The translations under genes and the position numbers were made by a program. Under the pieces are notes generated by a model that worked only from the letters and a program-made list of their open reading frames with translations, did not search any database and was not told the DNA's origin. From the IMG/VR virus record IMGVR_UViG_3300043409_000628, positions 1-31,504 of that record: a DNA stretch of 31,504 nt; one strand, given 5' to 3'. This stretch comes from a virus. Below are positions 8,593-27,882 of the stretch, piece by piece. The number at the start of each line of letters is the position of its first letter. The first letter of the stretch is position 1.

Positions 8593-10616
8593 AATGTCCT
8601 AAAATCTGTTAATAAATCTAAATCTATAACTCCGCTTGTTAAGTCAGTTGTAAACGAATTAATCACATACCGCTTATCCCTAATTACCACCCTATCATTT
8701 AACTTTAAACCTGTTAAAATACTTAAAGGCAAAACCGCTTTTATATTTATTTTACGCGCTTGTTGATTGAATATATTTGATATGTAATTGCTATAATAAT
8801 TTTGAAATAATGTGTTAGACTCTAAAGAGTCGGTAAACGTACTTTGCTCAATGCCCCAGTTGATAGTATAATTAGTACCTAATATATTTGTATCTTGCCC
8901 AAAGCAATTATAATCGTTAACTAAACTTGTTGATATGCCATTGCTCAAATAATAATCTGCGCTTTGAATAGTACCATAATCGTATAATATTATCGGTTTC
9001 GGTTTATACGGTTTTAAATCAGGCTTTAATGAATAGCCGACTTGTAAATTAGTATCTGTAAATTTTTGAAATAGCAGATTTTCAAACGGTAATTTTACTG
9101 AATATTCCGAACCGTCAACACCTACATTATAAACCAAATCCCCATATTCATTTACTGATGTCGCTTTAAAGTTTGCGTTTAAAATACTCTCGCTTTTTTC
9201 GTAATTGAAGTTGATTAATTTATAGGTTGTAACCCTATCCATATTGATGTCATCCATAATAACATATTTAGTTATATCAATAACATCACCACTATTATAC
9301 CAATCTTCTAACTGTGCTATTTTAAATATCCCTGCCGTTTCTGAATAGCACGTTAAATTAAACATCTTTAATATTCCGCTAAAGAAATCTTCCGCCTTAA
9401 TATCAGGCATATAATTAGCCACGTTTAAAGTTCCGCTATTGCTTTGCGGCGCACCTGTTGAAATCGCTATATGGTTATATACTGTCAATCCACTTACAGA
9501 AGATACTACGCTAACATCGTAATAAAAAGTTGATGTATATGTTAAGGGTGTTACACTACTTATGTAAAAAGTGTATGAGCCTATCCCTTGCGCATAGTCT
9601 AAATAAATACTGTTTAAACTTGATGTCACTAAATCTAATTCCGATACCTTAGAACCGTTAAAATAAATCATAAACTTAAACGGTGAGCCAGTTGTTGTAA
9701 AAGTTATTTCAATACCTGAATTAACTAAACCTGTACCACCAAAAACCTCATCGCCAAACTCATCATAAACCCTACCACCGTCATAATTAAATTTTGATTG
9801 ATAAACCGAAAACTTATTTGCAACCTGTGGTACATCAGGATCAATCACATCAAAGTAATTGTAAAATATTAAAGTTGGTTGCGCCTGTATAGTAATTAAA
9901 CCGTCTGCATTTTTTAGCCACAAAAAAAGTCTTCCGAACCTCACATCACTTAAAAAATCGCTATCAAAAGTAATTCCTAAATCGGCTGCAATTATTTCAA
10001 ATATCCTACTAACCCTAACGGCTGGGTATAAATCACTTGTATAAATTGGAGTTGCTGAATTGCTTATATCCCAGTTAGTAGCTGTTGTTCCGCCTGTATC
10101 ATATTGCCATACGTTTCCCGATGTTATCAAAGGAAACTTAATGTCACTATTTACATCGCCTGTTACCTTATTAGCTACATTTAAACCATTATAAGTAAAC
10201 TCTATACTGGTAAAATCAAACTCACGCAATAACCTTTCATTAAAGCCCTCTTTTAACGCTATTAAACTACCAAAAAAAGTGATAGTATAGCTTTGTATTT
10301 CAAAACCGTTCTTTAATTGCGCCTTTTCTAACTGAATTTTACCTCTCCTAAATATTACGCTATCGATTTCTACGTAAGCATCCTTTCTTATCCTCGCATC
10401 GAAACCATTTTGTAAGCTATTTTCATACCAATGCCCAAAAATTAAGTTGTTTTCATGACTTGCAGGTACTGTAAAAGACTGCGAATAGTCGGTAAATACC
10501 TTACTAATATCAGATACATCCTGAACTGAACTTGTAATACTTATTTTTTCATCATTAAATAACTCAATGCGCTTATAAACTTCGCCTATATATATGTAAA
10601 TCGCTACCGTTACCAT
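8589..10616 (-). CDS. Tail tip / baseplate hub protein
   Basis: A 675-aa beta-rich protein. The N-terminus (AIYIYIGEVYKRIELFNDEKI, then SITSSVQDVSDISKVFTDYS and SQSFTVPASHENNLIFGHWY) matches a conserved opening in tail proteins of Bacteroidota siphophages. A middle part is rich in Ser/Thr/Tyr strands. The C-terminus (LNDRVVIRDKRYVINSFTTD) resembles hub domains that close the tail tube. It starts one base inside the preceding gene (TAATG-type junction) and overlaps the next one by ATGA. It probably forms the distal tail or hub on which fibres sit. No peptidase motif is seen, so cell-wall cleavage cannot be claimed. Confidence 0.7.
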   Translation of the reverse strand: MVTVAIYIYIGEVYKRIELFNDEKISITSSVQDVSDISKVFTDYSQSFTVPASHENNLIFGHWYENSLQNGFDARIRKDAYVEIDSVIFRRGKIQLEKAQLKNGFEIQSYTITFFGSLIALKEGFNERLLREFDFTSIEFTYNGLNVANKVTGDVNSDIKFPLITSGNVWQYDTGGTTATNWDISNSATPIYTSDLYPAVRVSRIFEIIAADLGITFDSDFLSDVRFGRLFLWLKNADGLITIQAQPTLIFYNYFDVIDPDVPQVANKFSVYQSKFNYDGGRVYDEFGDEVFGGTGLVNSGIEITFTTTGSPFKFMIYFNGSKVSELDLVTSSLNSIYLDYAQGIGSYTFYISSVTPLTYTSTFYYDVSVVSSVSGLTVYNHIAISTGAPQSNSGTLNVANYMPDIKAEDFFSGILKMFNLTCYSETAGIFKIAQLEDWYNSGDVIDITKYVIMDDINMDRVTTYKLINFNYEKSESILNANFKATSVNEYGDLVYNVGVDGSEYSVKLPFENLLFQKFTDTNLQVGYSLKPDLKPYKPKPIILYDYGTIQSADYYLSNGISTSLVNDYNCFGQDTNILGTNYTINWGIEQSTFTDSLESNTLFQNYYSNYISNIFNQQARKINIKAVLPLSILTGLKLNDRVVIRDKRYVINSFTTDLTSGVIDLDLLTDFRTL

Positions 10617-14989: not shown

Positions 14990-15059
14990 GCGATAATAGT
15001 GTAATGGTAGCACACTAACTTTCCAAGTTAGAGGAGGGGTTCAATTCCACCTTATCGCT
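14990..15059 (+). tRNA. tRNA-Gly (anticodon TCC)
   Basis: The only plus-strand gene seen. The acceptor arms GCGATAA (14990-14996) and TTATCGC (15052-15058) pair in 7 of 7 positions. The D-arm is GTGT-AATGGTA-GCAC. The anticodon arm CTAAC-TTTCCAA-GTTAG has a perfect stem and puts TCC at positions 34-36, which reads GGA glycine codons. The T-loop TTCAATT is good, but the T-stem (AGGGG / CCACC) has two mismatches and the variable loop is only about 3 bases, so the molecule is slightly degenerate. No CCA is encoded. The last 45 bases overlap, antisense, the end of the Mom-like gene. A rare-codon supply function is inferred. Confidence 0.85.
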
Positions 15060-15629
15060 CTCATTTTTTGGGTAAGGTTTTTTAATCTTATTACAAATAT
15101 TAATTAATTTTTTGTTTAAAGGAAATACATATTTATGTTTTCCAGCTTTTTTTCTTTTAGGCAAAGTTTTAAAATCAACATTCCAATTATATCTTCCCAT
15201 ATCGTGTTTCCAAACACCATTTAAATAATATTCAGTTCCGCTGCTTTCTATATTTTCAATATATACCCAGTTTGTAGCTTGGTATATAATTCCATTATGT
15301 TTTTGTCCTTTATCTGCATAGCTAAATAACAATTCAACAGTTGGGCATTCTTTTTTTATTAGCTTTATTGCTATTGATAAAACTTTGCTTGTTAATGATT
15401 GTTTACCATTTAAAGCCATTCTGTTTAATTCTAAATATTGCCCATTTTTTAAATTAAACTTAGTTGGCATATTTACAGAAGCCCCACCGCCAAAAAGAAC
15501 TACACCGCACCATTCTTTATTATCATTAAAAACAGAATATCCAACCGAATATGTAGGAACTACTTTAGAATAATGAAAATTTAAACAAGCATATTTTACT
15601 GCTTTATTTGATGCTTTAACTAAATTCAT
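15015..15629 (-). CDS. Mom-like DNA modification protein (GNAT-fold)
   Basis: A 204-aa protein resembling the Mom family of phage Mu, which modifies adenine in phage DNA to block host restriction. Visible family features: HYSKVVPTYSVGYSVFND, WCGVVLFGGGAS, GQYLELNRMAL, a helix TSKVLSIAIKLIKKE, LLFSYADKGQKHNGIIYQAT (residues 101-119) and NWVYIE. The gene overlaps the ParB-like gene by ATGA, so the two are coupled. Its last 14 residues (from SDKVELNPSS) are encoded by the complement of the tRNA, so the C-terminus probably arose when the tRNA was inserted or when the frame read through into it. The modified base in this phage is unknown. Confidence 0.78.
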   Translation of the reverse strand: MNLVKASNKAVKYACLNFHYSKVVPTYSVGYSVFNDNKEWCGVVLFGGGASVNMPTKFNLKNGQYLELNRMALNGKQSLTSKVLSIAIKLIKKECPTVELLFSYADKGQKHNGIIYQATNWVYIENIESSGTEYYLNGVWKHDMGRYNWNVDFKTLPKRKKAGKHKYVFPLNKKLINICNKIKKPYPKNESDKVELNPSSNLES

Positions 15630-19654: not shown

Positions 19655-21445
19655 TTAAAATGCTAAATCGCTTGGGTAAATCTCGCCACCGTTTTGCATG
19701 GTGTATGTTTCATTGTTAATGCAAGGTATGTAATTTTTATATTTATCAATCAAATTAGATTTTTGGGGTTGCTCACCTCGTAAGTGATAACGACCTGACG
19801 GTTTGTGATAATCAAACTCGACCTCCGCCCCTATCTCTCCCTGAAAGGTGTACTTTGTTTTTAAATTTCTAAACTTCGTATAATCTCCCTCGCTAAAGTT
19901 TCGGTAAATACAAAAACCGTCGTGCGTTTGGTTTCTAAAATCTGCGCTACCTGATACATCGTAAAGAGTTGGTTCCTCGTACATACCGTCATCCTTTTTC
20001 TTCATTTTGGTCGGGTGTGCAATTACAATTATTAAAACATTATGCTGTTGTGCAAATTGAGTTAATCTCGATAAAGTCCTATTGATGTTTTCAAGCGTTG
20101 TTTTGGTATTGTTATGCTCGACCTTATTCCACGCATCCACAACAAAAATATTTATACCAAAAGTTAAAATCTGTTCTTTGAATTTGTCAAATAACCAATC
20201 CCAATGCGCATATTCGCCACTATCGGGGCTAGTCAAATAAATCTTTTGATTTGCCCATTTATGGAAAGTCATTAAATCTTCCTTTGTTGCCCTGCTTTCA
20301 TTTTGAATATCTAAAAAGTAATTTTTACCTATTACCTTTTGCACAAATGTAGAGTAGTGTAATTCTAAAGGCTGATGCTCGGGGCTGAAAAAACTTGCCT
20401 TTATATCGTTTTCCAAAACATAATTTAAAACCATCCATTCCGTAAAATTAGACTTTCCATGCGAGGGTATACCGGTGCCTACACATAAGTGACCAAACAT
20501 TAATTTAAAGATGTTATTCAAAGGCTTTAGCATAGGATTTTTAAACTCTAAACAGTTTGGTAACCCGCTATCATACAAGTCAATCATTTTATCGATCAGG
20601 TCATCGCTTGTAAATGTTCCTGATACTGGGTATTTCTTTGTTTGTCGTATCGTTTCTGTTAAAACTCCGTTTACTAAATCTTCATTTGCATCTTTACCAG
20701 TAAATAAAATACGCTCGCATCTATACTTTCCTAAGCGCTGAACTATCTTATCAGCTACATTGTTACCGCTCTCATCATTATCGGTTGCTATATAAAACTT
20801 CTTAATGTCCTTTATATATTTTTCAGAATTAACCCAATAGTTGTCATTATCGTTTGCACCGTTCGGTATTGATATGACATTGAATATCCCGATTTGATAT
20901 AACGCTAATACATCAAATTCGCCCTCTACGATGTACGCACTATCTTCACCTATTACAGCATTAATATTATAAAAAATAGGCTTTCCGCTTTTACTTTGGG
21001 TAAACTTTTTATTTGCTGACCTGTATTTTTTGTTTACCAAAGTTTCACCCTCAAAATAATTAAAAACAATATTTGTAACCTCATTTTCGAGTGCGGGCTG
21101 ATAATATTTTTCTTCGCTTATGTTAAAATGTTTTAATGTTAGTTGGGTTATGCTTCGTGTTTCCTCACAATACTTTACCAACTTATCGGATAACTCGGTA
21201 TAGTTTCGCCATTCCTGTTTTGGTAAAATGTAATTTTCAGTTATCATTGCTTTCTCCACGCTGTCACGAAAAAATAAAGCGTTGCAACCATCGTTAAAAC
21301 ATTTACCTGTTCCGTTGTTATGCCAAATATTTAAACTCTTATCGCTTTTGTTTTTTCTCGTATCTGTGCAAATCGGGCATTTGATTTTTTCTGTACCTGA
21401 TGTTTTGCGTAATTCTAAAATATTCCAGTTTTGTATGTTGTTCAT
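19655..21445 (-). CDS. Primase-helicase (T7 gp4/Twinkle type)
   Basis: A 596-aa protein from MNNIQNWNIL; this ATG lies 1 base after the previous stop, while an ATG at 21487 would overlap by 41 bases. The N-terminus has a zinc finger (Cys23, Cys26, Cys49, Cys54: CPIC...CFNDGC). A TOPRIM domain follows (YIVEGEFDVL with Glu174; IATDNDESG with Asp222/Asp224). The C-terminal RecA-type helicase shows Walker A GIPSHGKS (325-332), SPEH (356), Walker B IFVVDAW (Asp437) and VIAHPTKM. It unwinds the fork and makes primers. The zinc finger is complete, so primase activity is expected. No DNA polymerase gene is seen in the window, so the host polymerase or a gene outside is needed. Confidence 0.92.
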   Translation of the reverse strand: MNNIQNWNILELRKTSGTEKIKCPICTDTRKNKSDKSLNIWHNNGTGKCFNDGCNALFFRDSVEKAMITENYILPKQEWRNYTELSDKLVKYCEETRSITQLTLKHFNISEEKYYQPALENEVTNIVFNYFEGETLVNKKYRSANKKFTQSKSGKPIFYNINAVIGEDSAYIVEGEFDVLALYQIGIFNVISIPNGANDNDNYWVNSEKYIKDIKKFYIATDNDESGNNVADKIVQRLGKYRCERILFTGKDANEDLVNGVLTETIRQTKKYPVSGTFTSDDLIDKMIDLYDSGLPNCLEFKNPMLKPLNNIFKLMFGHLCVGTGIPSHGKSNFTEWMVLNYVLENDIKASFFSPEHQPLELHYSTFVQKVIGKNYFLDIQNESRATKEDLMTFHKWANQKIYLTSPDSGEYAHWDWLFDKFKEQILTFGINIFVVDAWNKVEHNNTKTTLENINRTLSRLTQFAQQHNVLIIVIAHPTKMKKKDDGMYEEPTLYDVSGSADFRNQTHDGFCIYRNFSEGDYTKFRNLKTKYTFQGEIGAEVEFDYHKPSGRYHLRGEQPQKSNLIDKYKNYIPCINNETYTMQNGGEIYPSDLAF

Positions 21446-21446
21446 G

Positions 21447-22043
21447 TTACAAGACGTTATTAAAAGTTTTGGATTTTGCTTTGTCAATAAATGGCAAGGT
21501 ATTTAATAATTTTGACTTCCAATTTGTAATTTTTCTATCGTTACCATCTTTCCAATCATTTACAACCCAAGCATCGTATTTTCTTTTTAATGCTACCTTA
21601 CAAATATTTTGGTCAATCGATAAACTGTAATTTAAAAACTCATCAAAAATTGGTATATATATATCTTTCTCTTTCTCTTTCCCTTTCTCTTTCCCTTTCC
21701 CTTTCCCTTTCTCTTGTAGGCTAGGGGTATTTGAAATATTTTTTACCCCTACTGGAGGGGGTACTGATACCCCTACGGCAGGGGGGTATATTTCGTCTGT
21801 TTTTGCTTCTAAAATTATACCAGTTTTAAACTCAAATCCTTTCACCTGCGCATCTATACTATCGGTTTGGCTGATATATGCAAACTTAGCCATACCCTTT
21901 AATACGGTAGGTTTAACACCCTGAAATTGCCTGTCTAATAAAGCATCTATAAAAGCAACCTTATCTTCTATATTTTCAAGTTCGTTATATACATCGTAAT
22001 ACGACCTGTAAAAATTAAACCCTTTACGTTTTGTTAGCTTCAT
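21447..22043 (-). CDS. Replication initiator / helicase-loader-like protein (DUF6291-like N-terminus)
   Basis: A 198-aa protein with two domains. The N-terminus (FYRSYYDVYNELENIEDKVA, FIDALLDRQFQG, GMAKFAYISQTDSIDAQVKG) matches a domain common in Bacteroidota phages (DUF6291 as I recall). A Pro/Gly segment (GVSVPPPVGVKN) and a Lys/Gly/Glu low-complexity linker follow. The C-terminus (KRKYDAWVVNDWKDGNDRKI, then TNWKSKLLNTLPFI) is like phage O/DnaD-type loaders. It stands directly before the primase-helicase, which it probably loads on the origin. The linker DNA itself contains iteron-like repeats and a 52-base purine tract. The gene is preceded by a structured leader RNA. Function inferred. 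Confidence 0.75.
   Translation of the reverse strand: MKLTKRKGFNFYRSYYDVYNELENIEDKVAFIDALLDRQFQGVKPTVLKGMAKFAYISQTDSIDAQVKGFEFKTGIILEAKTDEIYPPAVGVSVPPPVGVKNISNTPSLQEKGKGKGKEKGKEKEKDIYIPIFDEFLNYSLSIDQNICKVALKRKYDAWVVNDWKDGNDRKITNWKSKLLNTLPFIDKAKSKTFNNVL
21664..21788 (-). other. Candidate replication origin inside the initiator gene
   Basis: On the plus strand, TACCCC (21744-21749) pairs with GGGGTA (21758-21763), and TACCCC (21768-21773) with GGGGTA (21783-21788): two tandem inverted repeats about 24 bases apart. A third GGGGTA is at 21724-21729, and an AT-rich stretch (21729-21745) lies between it and the first pair. Beyond this comes an uninterrupted 52-base pyrimidine tract (21664-21715; purine on minus). 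Iterons, an AT-rich segment and their place inside an initiator gene are the layout of the lambda origin in gene O. Origin function is inference. Confidence 0.5.
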
Positions 22044-22054
22044 AACTTTTTTGT

Positions 22055-22143
22055 TAAAAAAAAACCCTTACAGACTTCAAGCGGGGCATCGCTATCCATC
22101 TGTAAGGGTAATAATATCTTTTAAACTCATGCCCGAGTTCCAA
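22055..22143 (-). ncRNA. Structured leader RNA or small RNA with kissing loops, ending in an intrinsic terminator
   Basis: Minus-strand transcript between a -7 box and a T9 run. Hairpin 1: AACTC-GGGCAT-GAGTT (22124-22139). Hairpin 2: an 11-bp perfect outer stem, ACCCTTACAGA (22099-22109) with TCTGTAAGGGT (22064-22074), enclosing an inner hairpin AGCG-ATGCCC-CGCT (22080-22093). The two loops, GGGCAT and ATGCCC, are perfect complements and can kiss. Hairpin 2 runs directly into T8-T9, so it is an intrinsic terminator. The ATG of the initiator gene is 12 bases further on. It could be an independent 90-base RNA or an attenuator for the replication genes. Confidence 0.75.
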
Positions 22144-22148
22144 CCTTG

Positions 22149-22156
22149 CAAATATA
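22149..22156 (-). promoter_or_regulatory. Bacteroidota-type -7 element of the kissing-loop RNA
   Basis: TATATTTG on the minus strand, a perfect TAnnTTTG, begins 4 bases after the stop of the upstream gene and points into the structured RNA. The start site should fall near 22143. No -33 TTTG is evident. Confidence 0.65.
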
Positions 22157-22159
22157 ACA

Positions 22160-22432
22160 CTAAATATTTAAAATCACCTTTTTATTTTTTGTCATGCTGT
22201 TTAAAATTTTAACTTTATTTTCAATCGCAAACGCTGATTTTCCTGTGAGTGACATTAACCTATCAACGTCATTAACATTATTTACCAGTAGCCAAATTTC
22301 GTGCATAGTCCAATAATCTGAATTGCTTTTATCCCACTCTTTTTGAATATCATTTGCAAGTTTTAACCTGCCTCCTGCTAACTCTATCCGTAGATTAAAC
22401 TCATCAAATAAGTTAGCTAAACTATCGTTCAT
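22160..22432 (-). CDS. Small early protein, unknown function
   Basis: From MNDSLANLFDEFN the protein is 90 aa; an ATG at 22471 would overlap the preceding gene by 32 bases and codes for an unlikely leader. It is helical: LRIELAGGRLKLANDIQKEW, DKSNSDYWTMHEIWLLVNNV, DRLMSLTGKSAFAIENKVKI and a basic end (SMTKNKKVILNI). The middle part could be a DNA- or RNA-binding helical bundle, but no family is recognised. Directly after its stop comes the promoter of the structured RNA. Confidence 0.6.
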   Translation of the reverse strand: MNDSLANLFDEFNLRIELAGGRLKLANDIQKEWDKSNSDYWTMHEIWLLVNNVNDVDRLMSLTGKSAFAIENKVKILNSMTKNKKVILNI

Positions 22433-22439
22433 ATTTTTT

Positions 22440-23066
22440 TTATCTATTTGAATCATAAAATGCTTTAGCAAATCCCTGACTACACATTGACCTTATATCA
22501 GCATCACATTTAATATGTTCTTTTGCCCATTGCATTTCAGGTATTAAATCAACGGCAGATTTGTGTAAATAAACCAATCCCGGTTTTGACCTGCCCGGTC
22601 TTACATATAGGCTGTCAATTTTAGGGCAATCACTCCAATTATTATAAACTCTTTCAGGTTTGTTAAAATTGCCCCACAATGCTGTTTTCTTAGTCCAAGG
22701 ACTACCGAATTGCCACGGTTGGTAAACGAATATAGGTTTACCTAAAAACTCTTTTAAACGCCCATTAAATGGATTTTCAATAATTGAAAAATGAGGGGTT
22801 GCTTCATTTATAATACGTTTACAATGATTAACTAAAAACATACCCTTTTTTAAATTACCAATTTTATCAAAGCCATTAGCTGTACTAAATTCAGTACATA
22901 CTGGATTTGCTATTATACCATATACATTTTTAGGTGGTGTATAGTTTTCAACTCCTATTTTTTCACCTATCATTATAACATTATATTCTTTTGTATTTTT
23001 TTGATAAAATAAACTATCGCTTCCTAAATCAGCGCATAAGTGTAGAATTATTTTTTTATCGCTCAT
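22440..23066 (-). CDS. Small cytosine-C5-methyltransferase-like protein
   Basis: A 208-aa protein with degenerate C5-methyltransferase features: motif I-like LHLCADLGSDS (residues 9-18), motif IV-like NPVCTEFSTANG with Cys57 (PVC where PPC is usual), motif VI-like IIENPFNGRLKEFLGKP (Glu97), and then YQPWQFGSPWTKKTALWGNF, common in compact phage members. No target-recognition domain or motifs IX-X are visible and the length is about half of a typical enzyme. It may be a compact DNA modification enzyme or a relative acting on another substrate. Its promoter is not obvious. Confidence 0.7.
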   Translation of the reverse strand: MSDKKIILHLCADLGSDSLFYQKNTKEYNVIMIGEKIGVENYTPPKNVYGIIANPVCTEFSTANGFDKIGNLKKGMFLVNHCKRIINEATPHFSIIENPFNGRLKEFLGKPIFVYQPWQFGSPWTKKTALWGNFNKPERVYNNWSDCPKIDSLYVRPGRSKPGLVYLHKSAVDLIPEMQWAKEHIKCDADIRSMCSQGFAKAFYDSNR

Positions 23067-27510: not shown

Positions 27511-27544
27511 TTTGTTAAAACAAAGATAATTCCTTTTCCTAACA
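27511..27544 (-). promoter_or_regulatory. Early promoter C: -7 box, palindrome and upstream hexamer
   Basis: On the minus strand, TATCTTTG (27521-27528) and TTTGTTTTAACAAA (27511-27524). TGTTAG (27539-27544) lies exactly 10 bases upstream of the box, as in promoter A. The sequence between differs from A and B, so the three shared parts are under selection or recently copied. Confidence 0.75.
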
Positions 27545-27874: not shown

Positions 27875-27882
27875 CAAATATA
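27875..27882 (-). promoter_or_regulatory. Bacteroidota-type -7 element of the second leader RNA
   Basis: TATATTTG on the minus strand (perfect TAnnTTTG), 12 bases after the u-spanin stop. The same octamer drives the kissing-loop RNA and the tRNA. No -33 TTTG is evident. Confidence 0.62.

Follow-up and report, generated by a model that had tools for sequence, protein, structure and literature searches.

The minus strand of the window, which is a whole 31.5-kb viral record from IMG/VR, carries at positions 22055-22156 a member of an apparently undescribed class of phage RNAs, in which two hairpins are joined by pairing between their loops and the second hairpin is at the same time an intrinsic terminator. 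That the class folds into such kissing hairpins is, judged from its members' sequences, close to certain. As to function, we consider it somewhat probable that the element is a promoter-proximal, cis-acting attenuator leader braced by the kissing loop, from which an RNA of about 90 nt would be released. All of the evidence comes from comparative sequence analysis.

A small ORF (22160-22471, minus strand) stops directly before the element's TATATTTG, a promoter element of the Bacteroidota −7 type (TAnnTTTG) at 22149-22156. Nine nucleotides separate the promoter G from hairpin 1 (AACTC-GGGCAT-GAGTT, 22124-22139), with which the transcript is predicted to begin and which presents the first kissing word, GGGCAT, at 22129-22134. 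Behind a 14-nt A/T-rich spacer (22110-22123) follows hairpin 2, the terminator hairpin, at 22064-22109 (fold z of −5.95). Its lower stem of 11 perfect base pairs (ACCCTTACAGA/TCTGTAAGGGT, 22109-22099 with 22074-22064) encloses an apical hairpin, AGCG-ATGCCC-CGCT, at 22093-22080, with a 4-bp stem (22093-22090 with 22083-22080) and the second kissing word, ATGCCC, in a 6-nt loop (22084-22089); the first word is its exact reverse complement. Every part named in the original prediction is present base for base. To them we add a purine-rich 4x4 internal loop, GGAU/UGAA (5′ strand 22094-22097, 3′ strand 22076-22079), which lies between lower stem and apical hairpin and is found again in relatives. 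Hairpin 2 runs into T9 (22056-22064), the first T of which forms the last base pair of the stem. This run is the U tract of an intrinsic terminator and the expected 3′ end of the RNA of about 90 nt, and the ATG of the downstream gene follows 12 nt later at 22043-22041. The predicted fold of the element contains both hairpins and has an energy of −31.5 kcal/mol, compared to −17.0 ± 3.2 for shuffled sequences (z of −4.6).

Relatives of the element were sought on viral contigs, starting from 80 relatives of the 198-aa protein encoded downstream and 80 primase/helicase entries with 80 loci per scan, a sample biased toward relatives of these two replication proteins. An initial, loosely defined descriptor picked up A/T-rich chance matches by the hundred, and promoter-anchored, control-calibrated versions took its place. 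With the kissing descriptor, the fetched loci gave 103 elements at a score of at least 38, and none was found in dinucleotide-shuffled or in reversed sequence. Loop complementarity was ignored in a separate set of 106 distinct elements, selected by promoter, best hairpin and strong T-tailed hairpin. Exact loop-loop complementarity of at least 6 nt was present in 72 of them, whereas 200 permutations of the second hairpins gave 5.6 on average and 11 at most; this control is conservative, because words common to relatives inflate the permuted count. The kissing-blind set holds 54 distinct kissing words. The median energy of the loop duplex was −11.0 kcal/mol, compared to −3.9 for permuted pairs.

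Covariation was analyzed in 24 members of one subfamily, which were aligned by sequence only, the structure being read off a single member, L086. In this alignment 95.5% of the cells are paired, with 98.3% and 94.4% for the kissing helix segments, and both-sided changes occur in 7 of 8 kissing pairs and 8 of 12 lower-stem pairs. None of 500 shuffles reached any of five measures. When the partners were slid by 1 to 3 columns the pairing fell to about 40%, a comparison in which the L086-derived structure somewhat favours the true over the slid versions. On an almost invariant terminator stem, the loop pairs GTGAGAAG/CTTCTCAC, GTGAGACG/CGTCTCAC, GTGGAAAG/CTTTCCAC, GTGAGATG/CATCTCAC and GGAGAGAG/CTCTCTCC are found. 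The compensatory changes in both loops that had been proposed as support for the kissing pair are therefore seen, and a search for the opposite case, homologues with stems kept and loops unpaired, did not bear it out. A covariance model of the subfamily, built with the window excluded, recognized the window element with 33.3 bits (E of 0.0034 in 305 kb). In five members (L167, L183, L184, L204, L230) the stem of hairpin 1 is lost and the pairing between the 5′ word and the terminator loop is kept, giving a pseudoknot-like leader; because these few members keep the pairing without the stem, it is the pairing, and not the hairpin-1 stem, that appears essential.

The other parts of the element were each assessed in scans that did not select for them. 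In a promoter-blind kissing scan, TAnnTTTG lay at most 32 nt upstream of 101 of 147 unique matches, compared to 0 of 32 in reversed sequence and a background of 2.7%, which supports the proposal that the element has a promoter of its own. In these matches hairpin 1 most often begins 4-7 nt after the promoter G. With the layout of Bacteroidota promoters, this distance would make hairpin 1 the first part of the RNA to be transcribed. A scan without T-tract or hairpin-1 condition found at least five T in the eight nucleotides after the hairpin in 74 of 112 matches (control 3 of 17), in agreement with the assignment of a terminator, and a hairpin-1 stem in 87 of 113 (control 3 of 18). Between the lower stem and the apical loop, stacked G.A/A.G mismatches occur in 39 of 79 elements, against 9.8 (maximum 22) with shuffled flanks. 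The internal loop types include GGA/AAA, UGAA/GGAU and its reverse, and AGUA/GAAA, and we describe this loop as G.A-rich only. A bulged-G/loop-E motif was rejected as a universal part, AGUA/GAA being found in just 12 of the 79 elements in either orientation. A hammerhead-like core, of which some relatives carry a UGAUGA..GAAA look-alike, was dropped because its core letters are not kept.

After reduction to less than 93% identity, 93 non-redundant elements from phage contigs remained, with a common layout of Bacteroidota-type promoter, start-site hairpin, spacer of 10-40 nt, T-tailed terminator hairpin with complementary loop and, 5-63 nt further on, a start codon. The median length is 89 nt, and an A/T-rich spacer motif occurs in 41 of the 93, where 8 would be expected. 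Searching the whole collection with a pattern of promoter plus spacer motif gave mostly chance matches and a handful of elements, some of them without hairpin 1. Three cultured phages carry the element, unannotated in each. Flavobacterium phage hattifnatt9-1 has three copies, one each before gp44-gp46, the gp34 helicase and the gp41 HNH gene, and their starts on the plus strand of the record are at 9358, 13299 and 14334; in Flavobacterium phage elemoA (7-9A) it stands before gp20-gp19 ('replication protein')-gp18, and in Cellulophaga phage phi19:1 before gp030, with its start at 10353. In phage 6H the element was looked for and not found. Among named phages, neither a DNA-level search with a 400-nt region of the window nor tblastn with the 198-aa protein retrieved a relative; the primase query did. 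When the subfamily model was run with strict filters on 295 other Bacteroidota genomes, a weak test for distant subfamilies, no cellular match was obtained, and the one match in that search was a phage contig. Promoter type and named relatives point to Bacteroidota as the probable hosts.

The gene behind the window element (21447-22043, minus strand) encodes the 198-aa protein, which has a DUF6291-type N terminus and is most likely a replication initiator or helicase loader; relatives have DnaD-like, Lin1244-type or 'replication protein' genes in this position. A CTTTCC low-complexity repeat at 21660-21714 (plus strand, codons on the minus strand) encodes its Lys/Gly/Glu-rich linker (EKGKGKGKEKGKEKEK). 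The next gene (19655-21487, minus strand) is a primase/helicase with Toprim and DnaB-like domains according to Pfam and PHROGs. Of the initiator relatives 37 of 65, and of the primase relatives 48 of 67, are preceded by an element at a distance of at most 2-2.5 kb; in about 30-40% of the relatives none was detected near initiator or primase. The replication-gene match that had brought in the locus was on the same strand as the element in 105 of 107 elements. Where the downstream ORF was read, its ATG lay −9 to 63 nt after the hairpin. This gene is often an initiator, and unrelated types share the place, namely DUF6291-type, DUF7833, Lin1244-like, DnaD-like and primase-polymerase proteins. Other elements precede genes for a helicase, ERF, RecT, an N6/N4 methylase, an HNH or GIY-YIG nuclease, or endonuclease-VII-like and PAPS-reductase-like proteins. 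The element stands before several kinds of DNA-metabolism genes and not the initiator alone, so that the proposed location before replication genes holds, but is not specific for Rep. Three loci (L121, L289, L302) have near-identical modules from promoter to terminator with differing sequence behind them, as if the module were exchanged as a unit.

The spacing of the hairpins bears on whether the loops pair within one molecule or between two. The spacer has a median length of 17 nt and stays below 26 nt in 73 of the 93 elements. Of the 20 longer ones, 10 contain a hairpin of at least 6 bp, against 2.0 expected, which leaves these 10 with a free length of about 10-20 nt. This conserved length of the bridge is most easily understood if the loops pair within the same molecule. 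The optional third hairpin in the spacer (about 6 bp, mostly with a 4-nt loop) is variable in sequence with its stem kept (L009, L012, L020, L103, L111, L124, L215, L216). Where several copies occur in one genome, each loop matches its own partner over 6-9 nt and those of the other copies over at most 5.

For an attenuator leader acting in cis, these features suggest the following course of events. Transcription would start next to hairpin 1, and the kissing helix could form once the terminator loop has emerged from the polymerase, with about 20 nt still to be transcribed to complete the terminator stem; the median distance from the kissing word to the end of this stem is 20 nt. In the finished fold both stems and the kiss would be present together. 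Most polymerases would stop in the T run, setting free the RNA of about 90 nt, and some would read on into the initiator and primase/helicase genes, whose transcripts must cross the terminator because the gap of 12 nt, or 5-63 nt in relatives, leaves no room for another standard promoter. By acting on the speed or quality of terminator-hairpin formation at the exit channel, the kiss could set the read-through fraction. We infer from sequence the production of the RNA, its termination and the change of read-through by the kiss. The kiss might help or hinder the terminator, and an effect on termination is not implied by the sequence, because the kiss does not obviously exclude the terminator. 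An intrinsic terminator between promoter and gene, as in classical attenuators, is present. A classical antiterminator was rejected, since an alternative upstream partner for the 5′ arm of the terminator was not above shuffles (paired fraction of 0.38, compared to 0.43 with shuffled upstream sequence). Because the hairpins and the kiss can coexist and the 5′ arm lacks an alternative partner, the leader would not be an attenuator of the usual either/or kind, such as those of trp or pT181. Two further observations count against the attenuator reading, namely the loss of the hairpin-1 stem in some relatives that retain the pairing, and the 30-40% of relatives in which no element was detected near initiator or primase.

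Several other readings were weighed against this one. That an ordinary promoter and terminator happen to have matching loops is hardly credible. By itself a match of 6 nt would be no great surprise, as about 5% of permuted element pairs reach it, and the promoter-terminator leader at 27882 in the window has no loop match; but family-wide covariation rules out coincidence for the class, the class model also recognizes the element in the window, and because the whole family keeps the loop pairing the match in the window is beyond chance as well. A stand-alone, trans-acting small RNA of the phage, with the kiss folding its roughly 90 nt into a compact body and the gene behind it read from upstream transcription, is unlikely, yet leads the alternatives, ahead of a put-like antiterminator and a protein-operated switch. 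The element is a complete unit from promoter to terminator, near-identical copies stand before different genes, and stand-alone small RNA genes squeezed in among the tightly packed genes of a phage would have much the same appearance. It is, however, always only a few nucleotides from a start codon, its loops are consumed by internal pairing, and the conserved bridge length favours pairing within the molecule. In a variant of the trans-acting reading, the released RNA would occupy the nascent hairpin 1 and feed back on read-through, each copy having a private loop address, as the mutually orthogonal loops of copies in one genome would provide. That the released RNA acts back in this way on hairpin 1 of the phage's newly made transcripts, controlling the dose or timing of replication, seems rather improbable to us; if it were so, loop words would be diversified between phages like plasmid incompatibility groups, and one genome could run several non-interfering channels.

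It is quite improbable that the folded RNA binds its own polymerase and renders this and later terminators ineffective, as put elements do. The putL and putR RNAs of HK022 are short RNAs of two stem-loops directly after phage promoters that suppress termination and are likely cis-acting (PMC9378689). The element resembles them in standing with two stem-loops after the promoters of replication genes, in its probable action in cis, in having several copies per genome and in size, 70-100 nt with a median of 89 nt compared to about 70 nt for put (PMC9378689). In contrast to put RNAs, which are not themselves terminators and have neither a U tract nor loop-loop pairing, the element has both, with T9 after hairpin 2 and a T tract family-wide; put sequences are also more highly conserved, and an effect on downstream terminators is not readable from the sequence. 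Still more doubtful is a leader that acts through a phage or host protein, which would recognize the kissing body together with the G.A-rich internal loop and thereby switch termination, translation or the decay of the RNA. The excess of stacked G.A mismatches at a fixed place and the A/T-rich spacer motif would suit it, but the internal loop is of several types in both orientations, and a purely structural part would fit too.

Among other known RNAs, the closest layouts are those of the put RNAs and of the repZ leaders of IncI-alpha/IncB plasmids, and the element may work like either. In repZ, as described in the references in PMC10724649, a leader pseudoknot switches translation and antisense Inc RNA competes with it. 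Both there and in the element a 5′ hairpin loop pairs with a distant partner, which in the plasmids sets the synthesis of the replication protein, and the loops are strongly diversified; the element's partner is the loop of a terminator, whereas repZ control needs an antisense RNA. The likeness to RNA control of plasmid Rep that had been proposed applies to the place before a replication gene, which holds in the window and is shared in relatives with other genes. It does not extend to an antisense promoter of the plasmid type, none being seen on the plus strand between 21508 and 24057 by a consensus test for TAnnTTTG. We file the element under neither put nor repZ, because in each case a defining feature that was tested does not hold.

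Attenuators of the pT181 type, which work by a countertranscript and mutually exclusive helices, have, like the element, a terminator within a replication-gene leader; the countertranscript and the exclusive helices were not found here. In the packaging RNA of phi29, complementary loops pair between molecules into rings. This RNA and the ROOL/GOLLD RNAs are alike to the element in that one short phage RNA has two complementary loops whose letters are free as long as the pairing is kept; they differ by pairing between molecules into rings, whereas the spacer of the element favours one molecule, and the element stands before replication rather than packaging genes. A riboswitch was rejected, since there are no highly conserved nucleotides of a ligand pocket and the sequence varies almost everywhere between subfamilies, among which only the pairing, the G.A character and the A/T-rich spacer recur. 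A type III toxin-antitoxin RNA was also rejected, as no tandem repeats were seen by reading and the downstream genes are those of replication, recombination and nucleases. At the curated threshold, Rfam 15 gave no match to the window element or to the loci of 11 relatives, and chance-level matches only at a loose threshold, consistent with the view that no named RNA family has this layout. Nor was a description of the layout found in the open-access full texts that were searched; one may exist elsewhere.

Across dozens of phage lineages, cultured Flavobacterium and Cellulophaga phages among them, a terminator hairpin would belong to a conserved tertiary fold. The class suggests that Bacteroidota phages control their entry into replication by an RNA device and not by a repressor alone. 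Its dozens of interchangeable, orthogonal loop pairs offer a natural way to examine the effect on termination of tertiary contacts made by a terminator loop, and could double as synthetic regulators.

Elsewhere in the window, a second promoter-terminator leader runs from 27882 to about 27788 on the minus strand before a small ORF (TATATTTG ... ACCGTTGA-16 nt-TCAACGGT-T7). Nothing in its 5′ part is complementary to the loop of the terminator, so that this leader offers a natural kiss-free comparison in the same genome. Three near-identical promoters, TATCTTTGTTTTAACAAAAAG, at 27528, 26672 and 23395 (minus strand) are followed shortly by an ATG, with no attenuator. A string common to them, TTTTAACAAAAAAG, is also found after the kissing terminator at about 22059-22046 and may be a shared translation-start motif. 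Finally, a tRNA-Gly (TCC) gene at 14990-15060 lies on the plus strand, opposite to nearly all genes, with a TATATTTG of its own just upstream.
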